Below, in pieces: positions 2,553-30,052 of a stretch of 31,341 nt of DNA. Numbering within the stretch: the first letter of the stretch is position 1; each line of letters opens with the position of its first letter. The notes beneath the pieces are model-generated. The model searched no databases. It was given only the letters and a program-made list of their open reading frames with translations, and was not told the DNA's origin. A program made the translations under genes and the position numbers. Source of the DNA: a virus; IMG/VR virus record IMGVR_UViG_3300044701_003472, positions 1 through 31,341 of that record, one strand, 5' to 3'.

Positions 2553-2623
2553 GTGTCGTCCTGACGCCTTGACCCTCGGGCCACAACGGCACGAGGGTAG
2601 GCGCATGGCTGCCGCTTTTCCGG

Positions 2624-2932
2624 TCAGTCGATCCGCTGTTGTCCCGGCGTCTCGCTGATCTTCCAGGCGTGCTCCACCTCGGGATCGGTCCACGATGTCT
2701 GGTCAGTGTTCGGCGATTTGGGGTGCTTGATTTTCTCTTGAACCTCCATGTTCAAAAGCCCTTCTTTTTCCTTATCAAACGCGATTTTAACACTCAGCGT
2801 CACCACGCTGCCGCGCTCATGCTGTGCGGTTTCTTTTACGGCGCGGGCGATTTTTTCAGCGAGGGAAGCGTTGTGCATGGCCAGGAATTGGGCCACCTCG
2901 GCTTCTTGTTGTTCGGTTAGGGCGTAGGTCAT
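2624..2932 (-). CDS. Hypothetical early protein
   Basis: This 102-residue, strongly charged protein has no transmembrane segment. The N-terminal half (LTEQQEAEVAQFLAMHNASLAEKIARAVKE) looks helical, and it is followed by a beta-like stretch (GSVVTLSVKIAFDKEKE). The start shares ATGA with the stop of the resolvase-like gene upstream, so it belongs to the recombination operon. The family is a common phage hypothetical that I cannot name. A DNA-metabolism accessory role is only suggested by position. Confidence 0.68.
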   Translation of the reverse strand: MTYALTEQQEAEVAQFLAMHNASLAEKIARAVKETAQHERGSVVTLSVKIAFDKEKEGLLNMEVQEKIKHPKSPNTDQTSWTDPEVEHAWKISETPGQQRID

Positions 2933-3348
2933 TTGCTGCCTTTCATGTCGATAATGTCCGCCGCCGGTTCGACGGTGAGGACGTTGGAGGAATTGAAGTA
3001 GGAAACCAAAACGACGGCCCCGGCCCGGTGCCAGGCTGCCAGGGTTTCGCGCTGGTGCGGCTGGAAATCAGACGGCACCGGACGGCGGTGTACCCCGCCG
3101 TCCGTGCGGCGCTTGCACTCGACCAGGACGGTTCGGCCCTCCACGCCAACACCTATCAGGTCCCCGACCACCTTGGCCAGGTAACGCTTCCGGCCACCGA
3201 CCACCGCGCACGGCGTGGCGATCCGTTGGGCCATGACACCACGGGCCACGAGGTAGCGGAGAGTCAGCTCTTCCAGGGTGTCCCCGGCCTTGCGGGACTT
3301 GGCTCCGCGCACCTTTCGGCGCAGTTCTTCAGCGGTCAGGCTTTTCAT
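2929..3348 (-). CDS. Holliday-junction-resolvase-like PD-(D/E)xK nuclease
   Basis: The 139-residue protein has the layout of small resolvase/VRR-NUC-like nucleases. A glutamate lies in helix one (E26-E27), Asp63 is in the strand VGDLIGVG, and VECK at residues 76-79 supplies the Glu and Lys of the PD-(D/E)xK core. FQPHQRETLAAWHRAGA follows with conserved Gln and aromatic positions. Such enzymes cut branched DNA made during recombination or replication. The gene lies directly after SSB and a winged-helix gene and downstream of RecT/RecE, a logical place for a junction-processing nuclease. The start overlaps the upstream stop as ATGA. Cleavage of Holliday junctions specifically is inferred. Confidence 0.78.
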   Translation of the reverse strand: MKSLTAEELRRKVRGAKSRKAGDTLEELTLRYLVARGVMAQRIATPCAVVGGRKRYLAKVVGDLIGVGVEGRTVLVECKRRTDGGVHRRPVPSDFQPHQRETLAAWHRAGAVVLVSYFNSSNVLTVEPAADIIDMKGSK

Positions 3349-3605
3349 TTTGCCACCTGCGGGCCGGTCAACAGGCTCAATGCCCTGGACACCGAACCGG
3401 CGTCAGTGGCTCGGTAATCGTAGGGGCCTGCCCGCTTGCCGGGTCGAACGGCGACGATCAGGCGGAACGGAGACTTGCGGAGGTCGCGGATTCTGGCGGA
3501 GCAACCTGCGGTCGAGAGTCCGCAGCGGCGGGCCACGGTCCGCAGGTTGTGCCACTGGCAATCCGACAGGGCGGAGAGGACGCGGCGGAGAGGGCGGGCG
3601 GTCAC
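3345..3605 (-). CDS. Small winged-helix DNA-binding protein
   Basis: The 86-residue protein reads as one winged-helix domain: helix (RRVLSALSDCQWHNLRTVA), turn and recognition helix (RRCGLSTAGCSARIRDLRK), then a beta wing (FRLIVAVRPGKRAGPYDYRAT). It resembles helix-turn-helix proteins found next to SSB and resolvase genes in phages. Small phage regulators and DNA-modification accessory proteins share this fold, so the exact role is open. The start overlaps the SSB stop as GTGA, and the end overlaps the resolvase-like gene as ATGA, so it is translated in step with both. Confidence 0.72.
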   Translation of the reverse strand: MTARPLRRVLSALSDCQWHNLRTVARRCGLSTAGCSARIRDLRKSPFRLIVAVRPGKRAGPYDYRATDAGSVSRALSLLTGPQVAK

Positions 3606-4078
3606 GGCAGGTGCTCCAGCTCGGAGCGAGAGAAGGGAAGCCCGTCGTCACCGTCGGGGCCACCGGCAGCGGGCCGCGGAACATGGCGGCGGGGCTGCTC
3701 GTCCACAGGCTCCGGGCTAGGCCGGTCGCCCGGCTCGCCCTTCTTACCTTCCACAAACTGGATCCGCTCGGCCACGATACGGAGGCGGCTCTGCTTCTTC
3801 CCTGTTTCCTTGTCGTCCCAGAGGTCGAGTTTTAACCGCCCTTCCAGAAAGATGGGAGTCCCCCGCTGGAAGTACTGCCCGACGATTTCCGCCTCTCGAC
3901 CCCAGCACTCCACATCTACGAAGGTCGTTTCCTCGACCTGCTGGCCATCGGTCCCCTTGTGGCGGCGGTTGATGGCCAGCCCAAAGTTGGCGACCGCCTT
4001 TTCGTTGGCGACAAACTTCACTTGCGGATCCCGTGTCAGGTTCCCCGCCAGCAGTACCCGGTTGAGGTTGAGGCTCAC
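3602..4078 (-). CDS. ssb: Single-stranded DNA-binding protein
   Basis: The protein coats single-stranded DNA at replication forks and during RecT-mediated annealing. Residues 1-112 form a typical bacterial/phage OB fold: LNRVLLAGNLTRDPQVKF, VANFGLAINRRHKG, TFVDVECWGREAEIVGQYF, GTPIFLEGRLKLDLWDDKETG and LRIVAERIQF. A proline-rich linker follows. Residues 144-149 (DDGLPF) are the acidic tip that normally ends SSB and recruits partner proteins. Here nine more residues (SRSELEHLP) follow it. The gene starts with GTG in a GTGA overlap with the upstream gene, and its own stop overlaps the next start. Confidence 0.94.
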   Translation of the reverse strand: MSLNLNRVLLAGNLTRDPQVKFVANEKAVANFGLAINRRHKGTDGQQVEETTFVDVECWGREAEIVGQYFQRGTPIFLEGRLKLDLWDDKETGKKQSRLRIVAERIQFVEGKKGEPGDRPSPEPVDEQPRRHVPRPAAGGPDGDDGLPFSRSELEHLP

Positions 4079-22473: not shown

Positions 22474-24597
22474 TTACGCCTCGCCCTTGCTGCGGGCGGC
22501 GGCGCGGAAGTCCTGCTTCGCCACGCCGAAGTCGTGGTAGCCGCGCATCTGGATGCCGAGGGTGCCGAAGTCGGCGTCGGCGGTTTCGATGGTCGGGGAC
22601 TCCTGGCCGTTGAGAAAGGCCACCTCGATGGCCGCCAGGTCGGCAGGATTGGCCAGCAGGTAAAACGCCTTGGCACTGTTGCCGGTGTACTTGGCATTGC
22701 CCAGGTACGCGGACACCACCGGCTCGAACTTGCCAGCGTGGGGATTCTGCGTCGGAGTCTTGGTGTTCGCGGTGTTGTCGCGGACTTCCAGGCTCCGGGC
22801 GATGGCGTTGCCGAACGCGGCCAGCGCGGTGGGCAGCAGGAGGACGCCGGGGGTGACGCCCAGGGGGCGGCCCTCGGTGTCGGTCTGGTCGAGGAACAGC
22901 TGCTCCAGGGCGGACAGCGAATCAATCGACAGGGCGGTGGTGGCCCCGGTGATCAGGTTCTTGTTGCCGGTGGCGAAGAACGAGGCGTTGTTCATGAACT
23001 CAGTCCAGAACACGTCATTCAGCTTGGTGCCAGCGCCACGGCCAAGCTTGCGCGGGGCGGCGGTAATCGCGCCCAGGTCGTCGTTGATCATGTCCGTGCG
23101 GCTGATGCCCAGCAACTTGGCGTAGGTGTCCGCCTTGTTGGTGAACGACTGCTCGGTGGCGGTGCCGTGGGGGATCGCGCCGGTAGGACCAACCTTTTCA
23201 TACTGGTCGTCGCCCGTCATCCGGTAGCTGGTGATCGTCTTGAAGTCGTTCACCGGGCGGATGGCAGCGATCTTCTTCCACGCCTGTTCAACGCTGTTGT
23301 AGCCGTCCAGCAGGAACTTGTTCGCGCTGCTCGACAGGATGCCGCCCATATCGACGGTGGAGAACTGGCCCGAAGCCTGGAGGCTGAACGCAGCGCGGAG
23401 AACACCGGCCATGTCCTGGCGGAAGCTGCGGCCCGTGTAGCCGTTGCTCCACGCGGCTTCGAGCAGCAGCTCTTGCAGGCCAAGACCACGGCGGAACTTC
23501 TTGGCGGCGGCTTCCAGGGTCTTCTCGTCGAACAGGCTTTCGGCATCGCTGTGACGGCCCGACAGGCACACGGCGGCTTGCAGAATCTGATCCGTCACGC
23601 CGGACACGCTGCCCGAGTGGATGGCCGGGGCCTGGGCGCGGGAGGCCCGCAGGACTTCCAGCTCCGCCTTCTCGGAGGTCCAGCCTTCGCGGATGGCCTG
23701 AGCCAGGATCTTGGGGTGGGCGGCGGCGATGGCCTGGAGGGCAGCCACGCGCTCAACGTCAGCGGCGGCCTTCTCGCGCTGGGCCTGGAGGTGGTCAGCC
23801 TGGGCAGGCTTGGCCGTGGCGGGCTTGTGTGCGGCCTTGAAGGCCAGGGCCAGGGCGGCGCGGGCAGCCTTGGCTTTTTCGGGCGCGTCGGCAGCCTTGG
23901 AAGCCTCGGCTTCGTCGGCATCGCCCATGGCGTCGAACGCCTTCTGCAACTCGGCAGTGGCCTCGGGGGTGAGGGTGGCGGGGTCAAGCCCCAGGGATTT
24001 GAGCCAGTCGGCGAAGTTCATGATTTTGGATTCCTGAACGGGGGAGGGTGGAGCGGCGGCGGTCATGGCCGCATGGGTGGAATCGTCGTTTCCGAGGGCG
24101 ACGAAGGACACCTCGGACAGGCGAGAAGAACGGACCACGCAGAGCGGGCCGTTAAAGGTCTGGCCGTTAATCGTGGCCTCTGCCCCGGCGGCGATTTCCT
24201 CGATTGCGAGGATGTCGGCACCGATCGACGCTTGCCACGGGAAGCCATTGTCGCTGTTGGCCACCACTTCCGCAGCCGCTGGACCGGTGCCGGAAACGAC
24301 GCCATCAACCGCCAGGGTCTTGGCGTCGTTGGTGATGGCCGTCGAGTGGCCCACCACCTGCGCGGTGTCGTGGTCCTTGAGGATCGGGCGGGCCTTGTCC
24401 GTGACCTGGAGGCCGGTCAGGTCGAGCACCACCGGGGACGTGGACCACGGGAAGCGATAGACACCGCCGTTGTACGCGGCCATGTGGAACTTCCGCAGTC
24501 CCTTGCCGTCGCCTTCGACGGGGGCGAGGGTCGCTGCGCCGGTCAGTCGAATGGGCCGGGATTTCGCGTCGGAGGCGGTCAGGCGGCGGATGGTCAT
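22474..24597 (-). CDS. Prohead protease-scaffold-major capsid fusion protein
   Basis: The 707-residue protein combines three functions usually split between genes. Residues ~1-175 are a U35/S78-type prohead protease with a probable catalytic triad H76 (ILKDHD), S124 (GFPWQASIGAD) and E162 (LSEVSF). Residues ~193-330 are a charged, alanine-rich helical scaffold-like region. Residues ~370-707 are an HK97-fold major capsid domain (MTGDDQYEKVGPTGAIPHG, LGISRTDMINDDLGAIT, VLLLPTALAAFGNAIARSLE). Fusion proteins of this kind are known in some siphoviruses. The start overlaps the portal stop (ATGA). An internal ATG at 24021 with its own ribosome binding site may produce the scaffold-capsid part separately. 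Confidence 0.93.
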   Translation of the reverse strand: MTIRRLTASDAKSRPIRLTGAATLAPVEGDGKGLRKFHMAAYNGGVYRFPWSTSPVVLDLTGLQVTDKARPILKDHDTAQVVGHSTAITNDAKTLAVDGVVSGTGPAAAEVVANSDNGFPWQASIGADILAIEEIAAGAEATINGQTFNGPLCVVRSSRLSEVSFVALGNDDSTHAAMTAAAPPSPVQESKIMNFADWLKSLGLDPATLTPEATAELQKAFDAMGDADEAEASKAADAPEKAKAARAALALAFKAAHKPATAKPAQADHLQAQREKAAADVERVAALQAIAAAHPKILAQAIREGWTSEKAELEVLRASRAQAPAIHSGSVSGVTDQILQAAVCLSGRHSDAESLFDEKTLEAAAKKFRRGLGLQELLLEAAWSNGYTGRSFRQDMAGVLRAAFSLQASGQFSTVDMGGILSSSANKFLLDGYNSVEQAWKKIAAIRPVNDFKTITSYRMTGDDQYEKVGPTGAIPHGTATEQSFTNKADTYAKLLGISRTDMINDDLGAITAAPRKLGRGAGTKLNDVFWTEFMNNASFFATGNKNLITGATTALSIDSLSALEQLFLDQTDTEGRPLGVTPGVLLLPTALAAFGNAIARSLEVRDNTANTKTPTQNPHAGKFEPVVSAYLGNAKYTGNSAKAFYLLANPADLAAIEVAFLNGQESPTIETADADFGTLGIQMRGYHDFGVAKQDFRAAARSKGEA
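24019..24035 (-). promoter_or_regulatory. Internal translation start within the protease-capsid gene
   Basis: On the minus strand AGGAA (24031-24035) lies 9 bases before an in-frame ATG (24019-24021), which would start MNFADWLKSLGLDPATLTPE. The point is exactly where the protease domain ends and the scaffold-like helices begin. The product would be 515 residues of scaffold plus capsid. Lambda makes its scaffold Nu3 in a similar nested way inside protease gene C. Confidence 0.6.
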
Positions 24598-26243
24598 GGG
24601 GCCACCTCAGAGAGCGGTGCAGGGGTCGCCGCCGCAGCGTTGACCATGGCCTCGATCTGTTTGCGATCGACGCCGGGGAAGGCGATGGTCAGCACGCCGA
24701 TGGCGGCGTCTGCGCTCAAGCGTTTGGCGGTCACCTCGGCAAGAACGCCGGTCATCGCCGTGATTTGAATGCCGTTCATGGCCTGCATCTGCACGTCGCC
24801 GGAAGTTCCGTCGCCGCCGTACTGCGTCGCCAGCTCCTTGGTTCGCTGGGTGATTTTGGCCCGCATTTCCAGGCGTTCCTCCCAGTCGTAGCCCTTGGCC
24901 GCGTAGATTTCCGAAAGGTCGGTCGTGCCGTTTTCCAGTCGGATTTGATCGGCCTTCGCTTCGCTCTCCGGGTCGATGTGGGAGAATCCGTCCCAGTGCC
25001 ACGCATGGCCGGTATCGGTGGCCGACATCCGCAGCGGCTGCGAAAGGTACCCCTCGACCAGCACGGCCTCACGGAACCAAGCCGCAAAAATATCTTCGAG
25101 GACCTGGGCCTCCATGCGCTCGCGGTCAACGCCGATGGAACGCCCGTAAATCTGCCAGTCCAGACGGCCAGACGAGTAGTTGTACCCCGACGAATTGCAG
25201 GCCGCCACGTTGTACGGCATGTTGATCGTGCGTGCAATTTCGTTGAGGATTTCGCGCTTAACGTCGGAGTAAGTGGAGGTCGGATGCTTGGCCTCCATCT
25301 GCGTCACGTCCCACCCCTCGGGCAGGGTCAGGATGGCTCGGCGCTCAAACTCGATCCGCTCGAACTCCTCGGCCTTGGCGGCTTCCTCGGCACTGGCCGC
25401 GCCGTTCGTGTGCATGATCGCGGCCAGGTCGGCAGCGGTTTCAGCGGCGGCCAAGACGGCCAGGGTCCAGCGGCGAAGTTGTGCAAATAGGGGCAGCGCG
25501 GCGGTCAGTTCGGGGATGCCACGGCGCTGGCCCGGTCGCTCGGGCGTGAAGTAGTGGACGACTTTATCCGCCGGGATTTCCAGCGGGGAAAGCGTCAGAT
25601 ACGAACGCCCGCCGGGGTGCTCGCGGAGCACCTCGTACTTGGTCGGGTTGCCGAATGCGTCGAAGTGTATTCCGTCGATCTGGTACGGGTCGAGCACCGC
25701 GCCCATCGGGCTGGCGACCTGCTCGGCCTCGACAAGTCGCAGGTCCAGCTTCACGGCGCAGGGCAAGCGCGGGTTCGTTACCAGCAGGCCGAATCCCTCG
25801 CCGTCCGTGGCCTTGGCCATGCGGAGCGTGCGTAATTTCTCGGCCAGTCCGGCAGCCTTGGCCCACGTTGCAAACTTGCGCTCGACCTCGCGGGCCAGGT
25901 CGCGGGGCAGGCCGGTCATCTGGAGGCGCGGCCCGGTGCCAACGCAGTCGTTGGCCAGGGTGGATACCATGCCACGCGCGTAGGTGTTGTTCGCCACCTC
26001 GTAGCGTGCGCGGTTCCGCAGGATTCGGCGCACGCCGGGGGCGGCGGCGGCATCGGCGGAAAGGCCATCGGCCATCGCCCAATGGCGGCGGTTTTCGTCG
26101 GAGGTTTCGGCAGCGTCGTACCGCGCACGGAGACGGCCACCGGCCAAGCGGACGGCGGCTTGCATATCGCGCATGGAGGCGCGGGGGCCGGTGGACCTGG
26201 CGGGCTTTGCGGCCTTCAGCGATTTGGCGGGGCGGCTCTTCAC
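24594..26243 (-). CDS. Portal protein (lambda gpB-type)
   Basis: The portal forms the dodecameric DNA gateway of the head. The 549 residues match the lambda-type portal family (PF05136): RILRNRARYEVANNTYARGMVSTLANDCVGTGPRLQM near the N-terminus, then FDAFGNPTKYEVLREHPGG, KVVHYFTPERPGQRRGIPELTAALPLF and NMPYNVAACNSSGYNYSSGRLDW. The C-terminal helical region is typical. Starts and stops overlap as ATGA with the genes before and after, as expected in a morphogenesis operon. Confidence 0.95.
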   Translation of the reverse strand: MKSRPAKSLKAAKPARSTGPRASMRDMQAAVRLAGGRLRARYDAAETSDENRRHWAMADGLSADAAAAPGVRRILRNRARYEVANNTYARGMVSTLANDCVGTGPRLQMTGLPRDLAREVERKFATWAKAAGLAEKLRTLRMAKATDGEGFGLLVTNPRLPCAVKLDLRLVEAEQVASPMGAVLDPYQIDGIHFDAFGNPTKYEVLREHPGGRSYLTLSPLEIPADKVVHYFTPERPGQRRGIPELTAALPLFAQLRRWTLAVLAAAETAADLAAIMHTNGAASAEEAAKAEEFERIEFERRAILTLPEGWDVTQMEAKHPTSTYSDVKREILNEIARTINMPYNVAACNSSGYNYSSGRLDWQIYGRSIGVDRERMEAQVLEDIFAAWFREAVLVEGYLSQPLRMSATDTGHAWHWDGFSHIDPESEAKADQIRLENGTTDLSEIYAAKGYDWEERLEMRAKITQRTKELATQYGGDGTSGDVQMQAMNGIQITAMTGVLAEVTAKRLSADAAIGVLTIAFPGVDRKQIEAMVNAAAATPAPLSEVAP

Positions 26244-26428
26244 CGGGCACCGCCGGGCACGATCTTGCCGATTGTGAAGCCAAAGCCCCGGCGCTGCTTG
26301 GTGGCTAGGTACTTGTCTGCCTCGATCAACTGCGACAGGTCGTGCTGTGTCGCGGAACCGTTGTCGCCCGTCGCGCTTTTCGGCAGCGCGGCGGATTCAA
26401 CGATCTTTTCCGCGAGGTCGTCGGGCAT
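26240..26428 (-). CDS. Small head-assembly protein in the gpW position
   Basis: The 62-residue protein (MPDDLAEKIVESAALPKS, then HDLSQLIEADKYLATKQRRGFGFTIGKIVPGGAR) is directly upstream of the portal and overlaps it as ATGA. In lambda this slot is held by gpW, the head-tail connector. The sequence is similar in size but I see no convincing gpW motif, so the connector role is positional. It is the first minus-strand gene after the plus-strand cassette. A minus-strand AAGG is only two bases from the ATG, so initiation may be weak. Confidence 0.6.
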   Translation of the reverse strand: MPDDLAEKIVESAALPKSATGDNGSATQHDLSQLIEADKYLATKQRRGFGFTIGKIVPGGAR

Positions 26429-26507
26429 GGCCTTGGAGCGTAGTCAAGCGAAAAGTTGAGCGCCAGAGCGACAATAGGGCAGAATCGTACCTCTTGGAAA
26501 TTGGCCC

Positions 26508-26534
26508 TTGACGCAGTGCCAACGGCACTAGGAT
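26508..26534 (+). promoter_or_regulatory. Candidate promoter of the plus-strand cassette
   Basis: TTGACG (26508-26513) and TAGGAT (26529-26534) are separated by 15 bp, slightly short of the usual 17 but good matches to a sigma-70 -35/-10 pair. Transcription would begin near 26541, the first base of the conserved leader hairpin region. This is the only promoter-like sequence I find for the three plus-strand genes. Confidence 0.5.
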
Positions 26535-26601
26535 CCCCCCATCAGCCCAGGCAATCCAGCCTGCTGACCGAGCGCACAGCGCACAGCGCAGGAGCAAGAC
26601 C
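26535..26601 (+). promoter_or_regulatory. Structured leader, copy 1
   Basis: The sequence starts CCCCCCATCAGCCCAGGC. It can fold into a hairpin with stem TCAGC/GCTGA, a CC bulge, stem AGGC/GCCT and a six-base loop AATCCA. A GCGC-ACA-GCGC element then runs into the ribosome binding site AGGAG (26590-26594), which is 7 bases before the GTG start. Copy 2 at 27010 has nearly the same sequence and the same spacing to its start. I do not recognise it as a known riboswitch. Confidence 0.6.
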
Positions 26602-26985
26602 GTGAAGACCACCAAACAGAACACCCTGACCACCACCGTCGAAGGGCTGATCCAGGTCCTGATCAGCGAAGGCGACTGGACCGCCGAGGAGGGGTCGCTT
26701 GCGCACGCTGGCGGCTGGGCGAATACCGCCTATCACGCGGTAGAGGACTGCGTACTCGCCGCCGACTACGACGCGGGCGGCGGGCAGATCGGCCTACTGA
26801 TCCTGGCTTACGACCAGGAGGCGACCCTGGAGGCCTTGGCGGAACTCGGCTTTGGGGCGGAGGCCGCTCCGCTGGCCCCTAAGGGCGGCAAGAGTCGCTA
26901 CGGCGACGGCCACTTCGGAACGGTCGACGTGTGGCGCGACGGTGACGAGGTGCTGCTCGTCGAGGGCTCGCAGCCGCTGGGCTGA
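26602..26985 (+). CDS. Hypothetical protein, first gene of the counter-oriented cassette
   Basis: This 127-residue protein has a GTG start preceded by AGGAG at 7 bases. It is acidic and probably globular: VEGLIQVLISEGDWTAEEGSLAHAG, HAVEDCVLAADYDAGGGQIGLLILAYD, EATLEALAELGFGAEA and FGTVDVWRDGDEVLLVEG. There is no signal peptide or membrane helix. I recognise no family. It is on the plus strand while all flanking structural genes are on the minus strand, so it must be expressed independently of the late operon, possibly in the lysogen. Confidence 0.66.
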   Translation: MKTTKQNTLTTTVEGLIQVLISEGDWTAEEGSLAHAGGWANTAYHAVEDCVLAADYDAGGGQIGLLILAYDQEATLEALAELGFGAEAAPLAPKGGKSRYGDGHFGTVDVWRDGDEVLLVEGSQPLG

Positions 26986-27009
26986 CGACCCCACCAGCCG
27001 CCGGAACGT

Positions 27010-27068
27010 CCCCCCATCAGCCAGGCAATCCCGCCTGCTGAACCGCGCGAAAAGCGCAGGAAAATAAC
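27010..27068 (+). promoter_or_regulatory. Structured leader, copy 2
   Basis: This copy shares CCCCCCATCAGCC, AGGCAATCC, GCCTGCTGA and AGCGCAGGA with copy 1 in the same order. Differences are a one-base bulge instead of two, A to C in the loop, and a shortened second hairpin (GCGC-GAAAA-GCGC). The stems are unchanged. It lies between two plus-strand genes, with no promoter-like sequence upstream, and ends 7 bases before a GTG start. Confidence 0.6.
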
Positions 27069-27389
27069 GTGATCAAAACCTACAGCCACCCAGGCGCCAC
27101 GACCTTTCGGGCGGTTGTGCTAGCCGACCGTAAGTCAGTCACCGCCAAGGCGTTTTCCGCCTGGTGGTCCGCAATTCACGAAAGAAACGGCCCTTGCGCA
27201 CCTGGCGGACACGCATCCTACACACAGCGCGAGGCCTTGAGGTCTCGCTATCAGGACGGGTCTAGGATCTTCCGCCTCGGTCTAATTCCGGTGGTATTCG
27301 CGCCCGGATGTGTCCCTCCCAGCTTGCCGCTCGCTGGGTGGGAGCTCGTCGAAGGAAGCGGGTACGTCCTGCACTCGCCTAAGATCTGA
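27069..27389 (+). CDS. Hypothetical protein, second gene of the counter-oriented cassette
   Basis: This 106-residue protein has a GTG start preceded by AGGA at 7 bases. It is basic, with segments HPGATTFRAVVLADRKSVTAKAF, SAWWSAIHERNG, YTQREALRSRYQDG and FRLGLIPVVFAPG. There is no membrane helix. The pattern of basic helix plus beta strands might bind nucleic acid, but no family is recognised. It shares its leader architecture with the previous gene, which suggests the two are regulated by the same signal. Confidence 0.64.
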   Translation: MIKTYSHPGATTFRAVVLADRKSVTAKAFSAWWSAIHERNGPCAPGGHASYTQREALRSRYQDGSRIFRLGLIPVVFAPGCVPPSLPLAGWELVEGSGYVLHSPKI

Positions 27390-27395
27390 TCGTTT

Positions 27396-27454
27396 GCCAC
27401 CGCCTGGATACCCAGGCGGCAGGCGGTGGCCGCGAAAAAACCAAAGGAAAAATC
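27396..27454 (+). promoter_or_regulatory. Leader 3 with two mutually exclusive hairpins
   Basis: The segment 27400-27407 can pair with 27412-27419 (CCGCCTGG/CCAGGCGG, 8 bp, 4-base loop). Alternatively 27396-27406 can pair with 27420-27430 (GCCACCGCCTG/CAGGCGGTGGC, 11 bp). The two use the same 5' arm, so only one can form. CGCGAAAA follows, as in copy 2, and then AAAGGA, 6 bases before the ATG of the helix-turn-helix gene. This is compatible with a switch controlling that gene. Confidence 0.5.
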
Positions 27455-27826
27455 ATGGGCATCCACAACCCCCCCAAGCTCACCGCAAGCGAAAAAGCCG
27501 CCAACAAGGCCGCCGCCGCCGCCCGATTCCCCGACGGCGAGGGCGAGACGCGAATTGGCGGCCAACGCCAACCGGCCTGGATCACGCGACCTGACGGTCG
27601 CAAGGTGAAGGGGCGAGACCTTGGCGCTGAAGGTCGAGCGAGCCGCCTACGCGGCCTAATCGCCGCAGCAGGAATCAGCCAGCGCGAGGCAGCCCGGCGG
27701 CTGCACGTCGATCCGGCGACCCTGCGGCGGTGGCTGTCCCCGCCCACGCGGGCCAGTCACCGCGCCTGTCCGTGGGCGGCGGCGGAGCTGCTCCGCCGGA
27801 TCGTCGAAGATCAGGCGGCGGAGTAG
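27455..27826 (+). CDS. Helix-turn-helix protein, third gene of the counter-oriented cassette
   Basis: The 123-residue protein has a Lys/Ala-rich N-terminal part (ASEKAANKAAAAARFPDGEG), a basic linker, and a helix-turn-helix at about residues 72-95 (AAGISQREAARRLHVDPATLR). The N-terminal segment is low-complexity and possibly disordered. The start has AAAGGA at 6 bases. It could regulate its own cassette or other phage genes, or the N-terminal part could act as a separate module. Its 3' end overlaps the opposing lipoprotein-like ORF by 16 bases. Confidence 0.72.
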   Translation: MGIHNPPKLTASEKAANKAAAAARFPDGEGETRIGGQRQPAWITRPDGRKVKGRDLGAEGRASRLRGLIAAAGISQREAARRLHVDPATLRRWLSPPTRASHRACPWAAAELLRRIVEDQAAE

Positions 27827-27974
27827 GACTCCCCGCCGGAAGCCAGGGCCTCCGCGTCCTGGCGGGCCATCCCGGCCAGATACTCGCGGAGCCGCTGCCG
27901 CCACCGCCGGAGCCGCAGGCGGTCAGGGTGAGGAGGGTGAGGAGGGCGAGGAGGGCACGCATTGCAGTAGTCAC
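27811..27974 (-). CDS. Small lipoprotein-like ORF with an apparent frame switch
   Basis: Starting at the GTG (27974) or ATG (27962) that overlaps the terminase stop, the frame encodes a clear lipoprotein signal, MRALLALLTLLTLTAC, followed by GSGGGGS. Beyond about 27900 that frame loses coding character. The neighbouring (-1) frame becomes well behaved (RLREYLAGMARQDAEAL, ASGGESYSAA, high third-position GC) and stops at 27811. A single -1 shift would join both into a ~50-residue lipoprotein. The unshifted frame runs on to 27675, deep into the opposing gene, and looks like a shadow. A third possibility is a 59-residue ORF from the GTG at 27990. The likely place is the host envelope. Confidence 0.45.
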
Positions 27975-30052
27975 CTTCCCCGCTTTTCACGGGCGAGTCG
28001 TTGACGTTCAGAAAGGCTCACACGGGCGGCTGGGGCGACCTGGCGTGCGCCAGTGTCGAAGGATATTCCGCGAATCGAAGCCGCAACGTGGAGGCCCACC
28101 ACCACGTCGCCCAGGTCGTTGTCGCGGCCAGGTCGCAAGGTCCACTCTTCCACCGTCCTATCGGCGGTGCTCACCACCGTTCGCTTTTCTGCGGCCAAGT
28201 GGGCGGCGATCATCTCGTGTGCGCTCGGGCTGTCGCCCGGCAGGTAGAGCGCACCGAGGCCACCAATCGGCACCGACAGACGCGACGCAACGAAGGATTT
28301 CCAGAAATTGGTTCCGATGACAACTTCCCGCATTTTGCGGGCTTTATTGAGTTTTATGCGCCAGTCGGTGCCGATCTTTTCGCCCGGCTCCTTCTTCCAG
28401 TCGCTCATCGGCTGCCGCTTCGCCCCGATGCCAACGCCACGGGACGGCATGAGCCGATCCTTCCACGCGGACATTTTGCAGAATTGGAAGACGGTGTCGG
28501 TGGAAGTCCCATAGCCCGCGTCGATCAACGCCAGCGAGACACGCCGTGGCGTGCCGTCCTCGTCGGGCCAGTCTCGGTCGAGAATCTGCGAGCACACCGC
28601 GGAGAGCGCGGCGAACCACGTCCCCTGCATCGATCCGGCGGGGTGGGTTTTTTCGAGCATTCCGCGCATTTCCGCCTTGGCGAATACCCGGCGTGACGGG
28701 TCTGGGTAAGCGGAGTATGCCACCAGGTCGCCGCGAAACGCATTGCCGAACGCACCGACGCCCCACCACAAACAGCCCTCGCCTACGTCGATAAAGGCCA
28801 CGAGTTCCACCGCCTCGCGGGGCACGATTCCTGGCCTGATACGGTTCAACCGCCTTGCGATTCCGTCCGGGTCCAGCTGTGCTTGCTGGCTCGTTTCAAG
28901 GTCGCGGGGGGCGTTCTGGTACTCAGCCCAGAACGCCTCGTCCCCTCTGGTAATCAGCAGGCCCATCGCGTGCTGCACTGCCGATATTTCGCCCTCGGCC
29001 ATCCGGGCAGGCCATGCGGCTTGTGCGCCAGCGTCCATTTTTGCCCGGTTTCCACGATAAAACGCGGTGGCCCTGGCAATCTTATTTTCTTGCGGGATGG
29101 CATCGTCGCTCAGGTCTTGACGGTAAATCTCGGCGTACTGATCCCAGAAGATCATGGCCGAGCGCGACGGCATCGAGACCATCAGCCGGGCGGTTGACCC
29201 TTGCCATTCCGGGTGGCCCTTGCGGTCCAGGAGTTGGGCCGCGCCGTCGTTTTTCTGGATTACCGTGCAGGCACACAAACACGCCACGCGCTGCCCAGGG
29301 CCAGCGAGTCCGAGAATATCGGACGCGAGGATTTGCAGGCGGTTCGCGGTCTGGTGCGTGCTCTTCGCGGAGTCTCGGGTCTGGAAGTCGTCCACTAGGC
29401 ACAGGTCCGGTCGCACCTGCGAGCCGTCCGCCAGCGTGGCCTTCGCGCCACGGATTGCGCCGGTAATTCCCGCGATTCCGATAACTGACCCACCGCCCGC
29501 AGCCGTTGCGGGAAGGCGTACTTCTTCTTTGGTCCAGACTAAATGCGTGGGCACGCCGCCGCTGGTCTGCGCCTCGGCTCGACGGGCCACGCCACCCAGG
29601 GCACGGACGGCGTGAACGGCCTCGGGGAAGTCGGCTTCTAGCTCGTCGTTAAATGCCAGTTCGCTCCGCAAGTTTTCCATTATTTGACGGGCTGCCCTGG
29701 ACGTGGCCGCGACTACGAACAAAAACCGGCGATGGCCGTAAAGCAGCGCCCACGCCGCCGCCCCCTCAACAATCGTGGTCTTCCCGCTCCCACGAGGCAT
29801 CGCCAGCGCCCGCAAGCCACCGTGGAGGATTATCCCCTGGATGCTGGAAATCAGCGCTAGGTGGTCGTCGGAAAACGCAAGAGGAAACCTGGGGGCCATA
29901 TAGGTCCGCAGGAAACGCAGGAGGTCCAGGCGACAATCCTCCTTGATTTCGGGCCGCTGGACCGGAGGCGTCTGGCCTATGTCTCGGGCCTCGGCTCGTG
30001 AGGCTCGCTTGTGGGCGGCCTTGTAGGCGATGCGGGCCGGGGAATCGGTCAC
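27971..30052 (-). CDS. terL: Terminase large subunit (lambda gpA-type)
   Basis: The protein is the ATP-driven DNA packaging motor with end-cutting nuclease. The 693 residues show Walker A PRGSGKTT (86-93), Walker B LCLVDD (~217-222), and a gpA-type nuclease domain with D422 (VAFIDVGEG), D511 (LALIDAGYGTSTDTVFQFC) and D648 (DNDLGDVVVGLHVAA). The start overlaps the upstream stop as ATGA. The small subunit is not recognisable in the window. The gene is the first large late gene, and the head genes continue after the plus-strand cassette. Confidence 0.95.
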   Translation of the reverse strand: MTDSPARIAYKAAHKRASRAEARDIGQTPPVQRPEIKEDCRLDLLRFLRTYMAPRFPLAFSDDHLALISSIQGIILHGGLRALAMPRGSGKTTIVEGAAAWALLYGHRRFLFVVAATSRAARQIMENLRSELAFNDELEADFPEAVHAVRALGGVARRAEAQTSGGVPTHLVWTKEEVRLPATAAGGGSVIGIAGITGAIRGAKATLADGSQVRPDLCLVDDFQTRDSAKSTHQTANRLQILASDILGLAGPGQRVACLCACTVIQKNDGAAQLLDRKGHPEWQGSTARLMVSMPSRSAMIFWDQYAEIYRQDLSDDAIPQENKIARATAFYRGNRAKMDAGAQAAWPARMAEGEISAVQHAMGLLITRGDEAFWAEYQNAPRDLETSQQAQLDPDGIARRLNRIRPGIVPREAVELVAFIDVGEGCLWWGVGAFGNAFRGDLVAYSAYPDPSRRVFAKAEMRGMLEKTHPAGSMQGTWFAALSAVCSQILDRDWPDEDGTPRRVSLALIDAGYGTSTDTVFQFCKMSAWKDRLMPSRGVGIGAKRQPMSDWKKEPGEKIGTDWRIKLNKARKMREVVIGTNFWKSFVASRLSVPIGGLGALYLPGDSPSAHEMIAAHLAAEKRTVVSTADRTVEEWTLRPGRDNDLGDVVVGLHVAASIRGISFDTGARQVAPAARVSLSERQRLAREKRGR

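Follow-up and report, generated by a model that had tools for sequence, protein, structure and literature searches.

What keeps a leader of about 50 nt nearly unchanged ahead of genes that have nothing in common? The question is raised by a phage locus in which such a leader occurs twice within the window (the whole stretch of viral DNA analysed, an IMG/VR virus record of 31,341 nucleotides), each time ahead of one small gene, and the two genes are unrelated (Table 1). The initial annotation placed the copies at 26535-26601 and 27010-27068 and quoted four blocks that they share; the positions were borne out in the sequence, and all four blocks are present in that order in both copies, giving the consensus CATCAGCC(C)AGGCAATCC[A/C]GCCTGCTGA...GCGCAGGA. 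By BLAST the copies are 88% identical over 51 bases (E = 3e-10), well above chance, and 40/46 bases are identical in the alignment. Comparison of the cargo proteins agreed with the earlier description of them as dissimilar. The codon-position GC of cargo gene 1 is typical of the phage's genes.

Table 1. Positions of the leader elements and of the surrounding genes in the window.
Feature	Position	Strand	Description
Portal gene, left flank	24594-26243	-	phrog_21, E 3e-58
Copy 1, promoter-like hexamers	26508-26534	+	TTGACG (26508-26513), 15-nt spacer, TAGGAT (26529-26534)
Copy 1, hairpin 1	26540-26567	+	Inverted repeat; loop AAUCCA; bulge CC
Copy 1, hairpin 2	26568-26593	+	CC-GA-GCGC...GCGC-A-GG; contains a 7-nt tandem duplication
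Cargo gene 1	26602-26985	+	127 aa; no family match
Copy 2, weak promoter-like hexamers	26982-27009	+	CTGACG (26982-26987), 16-nt spacer, GAACGT (27004-27009)
Copy 2, hairpin 1	27015-27041	+	Loop AAUCCC; bulge C
Copy 2, hairpin 2	27043-27061	+	CC-GCGC-GAAAA-GCGC-A-GG
Cargo gene 2	27069-27389	+	106 aa; no family match
HTH gene, end of cassette	27455-27826	+	Homologue ends the L130 cassette (54% over 59 aa)
Terminase large subunit gene, right flank	27971-30052	-	phrog_38, E 3e-29

We also looked for further examples in related phages, on which the initial annotation had made its reading depend, and found one in each of two viral contigs, L009 and L130, which brings the total to four copies in three phages. 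The L009 copy was found with a pattern omitting the 5' part of the leader and belongs to a phage whose portal protein is 61% identical to that of the window; the L130 copy was found with a pattern demanding the second GCGC and GCAGGA, in a phage whose portal is only 22% identical. A third contig, L003 (IMGVR_UViG_3300043427_002931), matches the window at 100% over 5,733 bases and so represents the same phage. The leader thus turns up at independent loci and is always placed alike with respect to the gene behind it, each copy ending 7-8 nt ahead of a start codon, as expected of a structured cis-regulatory RNA.

A covariance model built from three copies, as had been proposed, recovered the fourth at 63.5 bits and found nothing further above 15.4 bits in 765 kb from 83 sources, including 78 other portal-related loci. 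Pattern scans of the viral contigs, including later and looser ones that added nothing, gave true copies only in L003, L009 and L130; their other matches had no promoter-leader-Shine-Dalgarno context, and a pattern used on genome contigs was too loose (at least 116 stretches, with no real copy among the matches inspected). Applied to 392 planctomycete genomes at E 0.05, after a first look that scored 14 candidates per genome, the model matched in 21 genomes, which is the chance expectation, and the best of these matches were inspected; no match was obtained in 23 genomes from the order of G063. Pattern searches of 29, 397 and 398 genomes of planctomycete classes, samples that like the others overlap one another and cover several hundred genomes, gave 3 chance matches, one of them antisense within a phosphofructokinase gene, and no true copy. 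A DNA search of INPHARED and plasmids found nothing related to the leader. As first stated, no known RNA family matches: Rfam 15 searched at the gathering threshold returned nothing, and a permissive search of the region gave just a chance miRNA model on the opposite strand. Since model and patterns together yield four copies in three phages, the leader is rare in public data.

The four copies could be aligned by hand as AUCA[G/A]-CC(C)-AGGC-AAUCC[A/C]-GCCU-(G)-CUGA-(0-2 nt)-CC-(GA)-GCGC-loop-GCGC-A-GGA. Hairpin 1 is made of a lower stem of 3-5 bp, a C bulge, an upper stem of 4-5 bp and a 6-base loop, of which bases 1-5 (AAUCC) are invariant across the four copies. Hairpin 2 consists of GCGC paired with GCGC, closed by a conserved CC opposite the GG of the Shine-Dalgarno, and runs into the AGGA at 26590-26593 in copy 1 and at 27058-27061 in copy 2. 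The stems had been described as unchanged between the copies, which is true of hairpin 1 but not of hairpin 2; the latter does not differ in size alone, as 7 nt (ACAGCGC) are tandemly duplicated in copy 1, and in copy 2 GCGC pairs in a shifted register. In the same way, the distance of 7 bases given to the GTG start is correct for the AGGA of copy 2, as it is for the start codons of L009 and L130, but copy 1 has 8.

Outside the leader little DNA is shared with the L130 phage. When the window region was compared with the DNA of this phage, the leader was the sole strong match (94% over 48 bp); next came part of the HTH gene at 67%, and hardly anything else aligned. The 80 nt upstream of the copies are 20-34% identical, which is background. 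The best promoter-like hexamer pair upstream of each of the four copies stops at one and the same distance from the leader, exactly 5 nt ahead of CATCA. With every hexamer pair at spacers of 15-19 considered, the joint promoter score of the four copies was 31, reached in 0 of 5000 dinucleotide shuffles (maximum 28), and the three leading copies alone scored 25 against a shuffle maximum of 24. The pair of copy 2 has 6/12 matches and may be inactive. A generic promoter scan did not list these hexamer pairs, because it demands spacers of 16-18 and at least 9/12 matches, and two of the leader spacers are 15. By the usual distance from the -10 element, transcription would start at about the A of CATCAG (in copy 1, about 26541). 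The earlier suggestion that the transcript of copy 1 begins almost at the hairpin was therefore upheld as a prediction from promoter position, and extends to all four copies. Given the fixed promoter distance, hairpin 1 should sit at the 5' end of the mRNA, its stem a predicted few nucleotides from the terminus. The conserved block spans the predicted +1 to the Shine-Dalgarno; that it extends as far as this element, 7-8 nt ahead of the start codon, suggests a role in translation.

Each of the four copies individually folds into the same two hairpins. The consensus fold has -17.9 kcal/mol, compared with -6.8 +/- 2.5 for 1000 column shuffles (z -4.5), which do not preserve dinucleotides. Folded as single sequences, copy 1 (z -0.75), L009 (-0.79) and L130 (-1.9) gave weak values and copy 2 a strong one (-4.95). 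The indels in the bulge and spacer of copy 2 and L130 leave the stem of hairpin 1 intact, and copy 2 preserves hairpin 2 by the register shift. The check for covarying base pairs proposed at the outset found no pair with both partners changed, and 9 of the 15 pairs are invariant, four copies being too few for a strong negative. When downstream sequence was added to the fold, hairpin 1 was still the main structure and pairing of the Shine-Dalgarno became mixed, its GG in copy 1 being about 45-55% unpaired by prediction. Masking is thus partial and depends on downstream context, and for this reason we treat it as a mere possibility. Two other elements were rejected, namely a pseudoknot between loop and Shine-Dalgarno (UCC:GGA, 3 bp), too short to claim, and a CsrA site, as no loop contains GGA. 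Selection had been proposed to act on the leader RNA. Considering the recurrence in two more phages, the unrelated cargo and the diverged flanks, selection does appear to act on the leader itself, while covariation does not place it at the level of RNA.

We give a probability of about one half to the reading that the leader belongs to a portable module, made up of promoter and 5' leader, that drives accessory (moron-type) genes of phages and affects how stable or how well translated their mRNA is; the phages carrying it probably infect Planctomycetota. Transcription would start at the A of CATCAG or at a neighbouring base, which would put hairpin 1 right at the 5' terminus of the mRNA, with hairpin 2 adjoining the Shine-Dalgarno. 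The leader would then most likely act post-transcriptionally, hairpin 1 shielding the 5' end from decay and/or offering the invariant loop AAUCC to a shared factor, and hairpin 2 setting the accessibility of the Shine-Dalgarno; for action at the RNA level as such, we see the chances as evenly balanced. The block spans the predicted 5' end to the Shine-Dalgarno and is indifferent to its cargo. Both facts speak against regulation through the product of the cargo gene itself; they favour a trans-acting factor shared by the messages or a general influence on how mRNA decays or is translated. A more specific version is tentative and in our view rather unlikely, namely a transferable phage 5'-hairpin module, comprising its own promoter and the double-hairpin leader and joined by phages to unrelated accessory genes, whose AAUCC loop is read by a common RNA-binding factor of host or phage; if true, this would make it a cis-regulatory RNA of a new class, confined to phages of Planctomycetota.

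It is well established that a stem-loop at the 5' terminus can stabilize an mRNA (Emory et al. 1992, as cited in PMC7509114). The leader resembles the E. coli ompA type in having a stem-loop predicted at most 1-2 bases from the 5' end, followed by the Shine-Dalgarno, which suggests by analogy that it may work as a 5'-terminal stabilizing stem-loop. Unlike the ompA type, it is near-identical on unrelated phage genes, has an invariant loop and carries a second hairpin abutting the Shine-Dalgarno. Leaders that mask the Shine-Dalgarno include translational riboswitches and RNA thermometers such as prfA (PMC7509114). Hairpin 2 is similar in that its 3' side includes the Shine-Dalgarno GG, but only two CC:GG pairs lie beyond the GCGC stem and masking is partial in silico. 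What would be new is a phage-borne portable leader with a private promoter; the leader belongs to no Rfam family. A near-invariant leader amid turnover around it would be a shared control point for accessory genes, and a handle for finding them.

The main rival to an RNA-level function is a DNA operator, in which the HTH protein of the cassette would bind the inverted repeat (core AGGC-N6-GCCT; roughly +1 to +27) and so repress or autoregulate the cargo. Operators of lac and of lambdoid/434-type repressors overlap the start site (+1), and the leader shares with them an inverted repeat just past the promoter, directly downstream of the hexamers, a 4-6-4 core and a linked HTH gene. Moreover, homologous HTH genes end the cassettes of both the window and the L130 phage, the core spacing is constant in all copies, and within the window AGGC-N6-GCCT is found solely in the two leaders. 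However, the outer arms differ from such operators in varying in spacing, copy 2 and L130 each showing a 1-bp shift of the half-sites; the centre, AATCC, is asymmetric and never varies; and conservation goes on past the repeat, across hairpin 2 and as far as the Shine-Dalgarno, an extent for which an operator has no use. In addition, the L009 contig ends before any HTH gene could show, and the L130 phage has an extra AGGC-N6-GCCT inside its leader-linked gene. We consider an operator a serious though minority explanation. The inverted repeat offers a clean test case; action as RNA and action as DNA make opposite predictions for stem-restoring double mutants.

We also considered that the leader could be a recombination linker, that is a conserved joint for the exchange of accessory genes, kept by repeated exchange and not by RNA function. 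Copy 1 is identical to the L130 leader at 46/46 aligned positions, the differences being three indels, although the phages are otherwise barely related; it is nearer to this leader than to copy 2, and different cargo lies behind each copy, all as a linker would have it. Nevertheless, the flanks are unrelated on both sides and yet the promoter keeps its fixed 5-nt distance, and the block ends at the Shine-Dalgarno. Both features indicate that the leader is functionally placed, and we regard a pure linker as improbable.

Less probable still is a metabolite-binding riboswitch in which the bulged hairpin 1 and its unvarying loop would form an aptamer gating hairpin 2 and the Shine-Dalgarno. Its structure is compact and the Shine-Dalgarno partly pairable, but the cargo genes share no pathway or family, Rfam gives no match, the loop is small and no junction or pseudoknot is backed by covariation. 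Least credible is ribosome docking, by which loop and stem bases of hairpin 1, AUCCAGCC, would base-pair with GGCUGGAU, the universal 3' tail of 16S rRNA beside the anti-Shine-Dalgarno, because this 8-nt complementarity, found post hoc in copy 1 (26554-26561), L009 and L130, is broken in copy 2 (AUCCCGCC) and would open hairpin 1.

A portable module of accessory genes, the reading we prefer, can also be considered in its genomic context. The terminase and portal genes of the window enclose the cassette, which runs antisense to them in the order copy 1, gene 1, copy 2, gene 2, HTH gene. In the L130 phage (L282) a cassette with the same place and orientation contains the leader gene, an Imm5-like gene and an HTH gene. 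L009 has its leader gene oriented divergently from the portal gene and truncated where the contig stops. The terminase-portal gap measures 1731 nt in the window against 250-860 nt in most relatives, and therefore the cassette can be regarded as an optional moron-type insert; judged from sequence alone, it is optional, on the opposite strand, equipped with its own promoter-like sites and absent from relatives. Phage moron loci have their own promoter and run antisense to lytic genes (PMC7067206). Leader cassettes are like them in consisting of small unknown genes that oppose the head genes and have a promoter-like site to themselves, but we know of no moron class with a common structured leader across phages of differing cargo. 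The gap (window 26243-27971; L196-L274) is 1-3 kb in some 16 relatives, with differing cargo, and looks like an insertion spot for accessory genes.

The portal family of the window reaches E of about 1e-177 among planctomycete genomes, whereas the best value in 299 Pseudomonadota genomes is 4e-32, which makes a planctomycete the probable host. The case is weaker for the L130 phage (30% identity in one planctomycete genome, 24% in INPHARED). A targeted literature search found no work on planctomycete phages, and gene control in them thus seems little known.

Some observations concern neighbouring genes. Structures of the cargo proteins predicted from single sequences were of too poor quality to use. 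A third, different hairpin, GCCACCGCCTG...CAGGCGGTGGC, lies ahead of the HTH gene at 27390-27454 (folding z -2.8), with an alternative pairing CCGCCTGG/CCAGGCGG. In L282, the gene behind the leader gene (3222-3761, minus strand) has an Imm5-like match (PF21805) just below cutoff, and its product ends with low-complexity AASSAYAASSA and arginine/leucine runs, plus a run of undetermined residues; the HTH protein (2610-3212, minus strand) has a weak sub-cutoff match to VC1465, a Xer recombination activation factor (E 1e-6). Finally, a single ORF on the minus strand of the window (22474-24597; phrog_4523, E 6.5e-66) seems to fuse a head-maturation protease and a major head protein.
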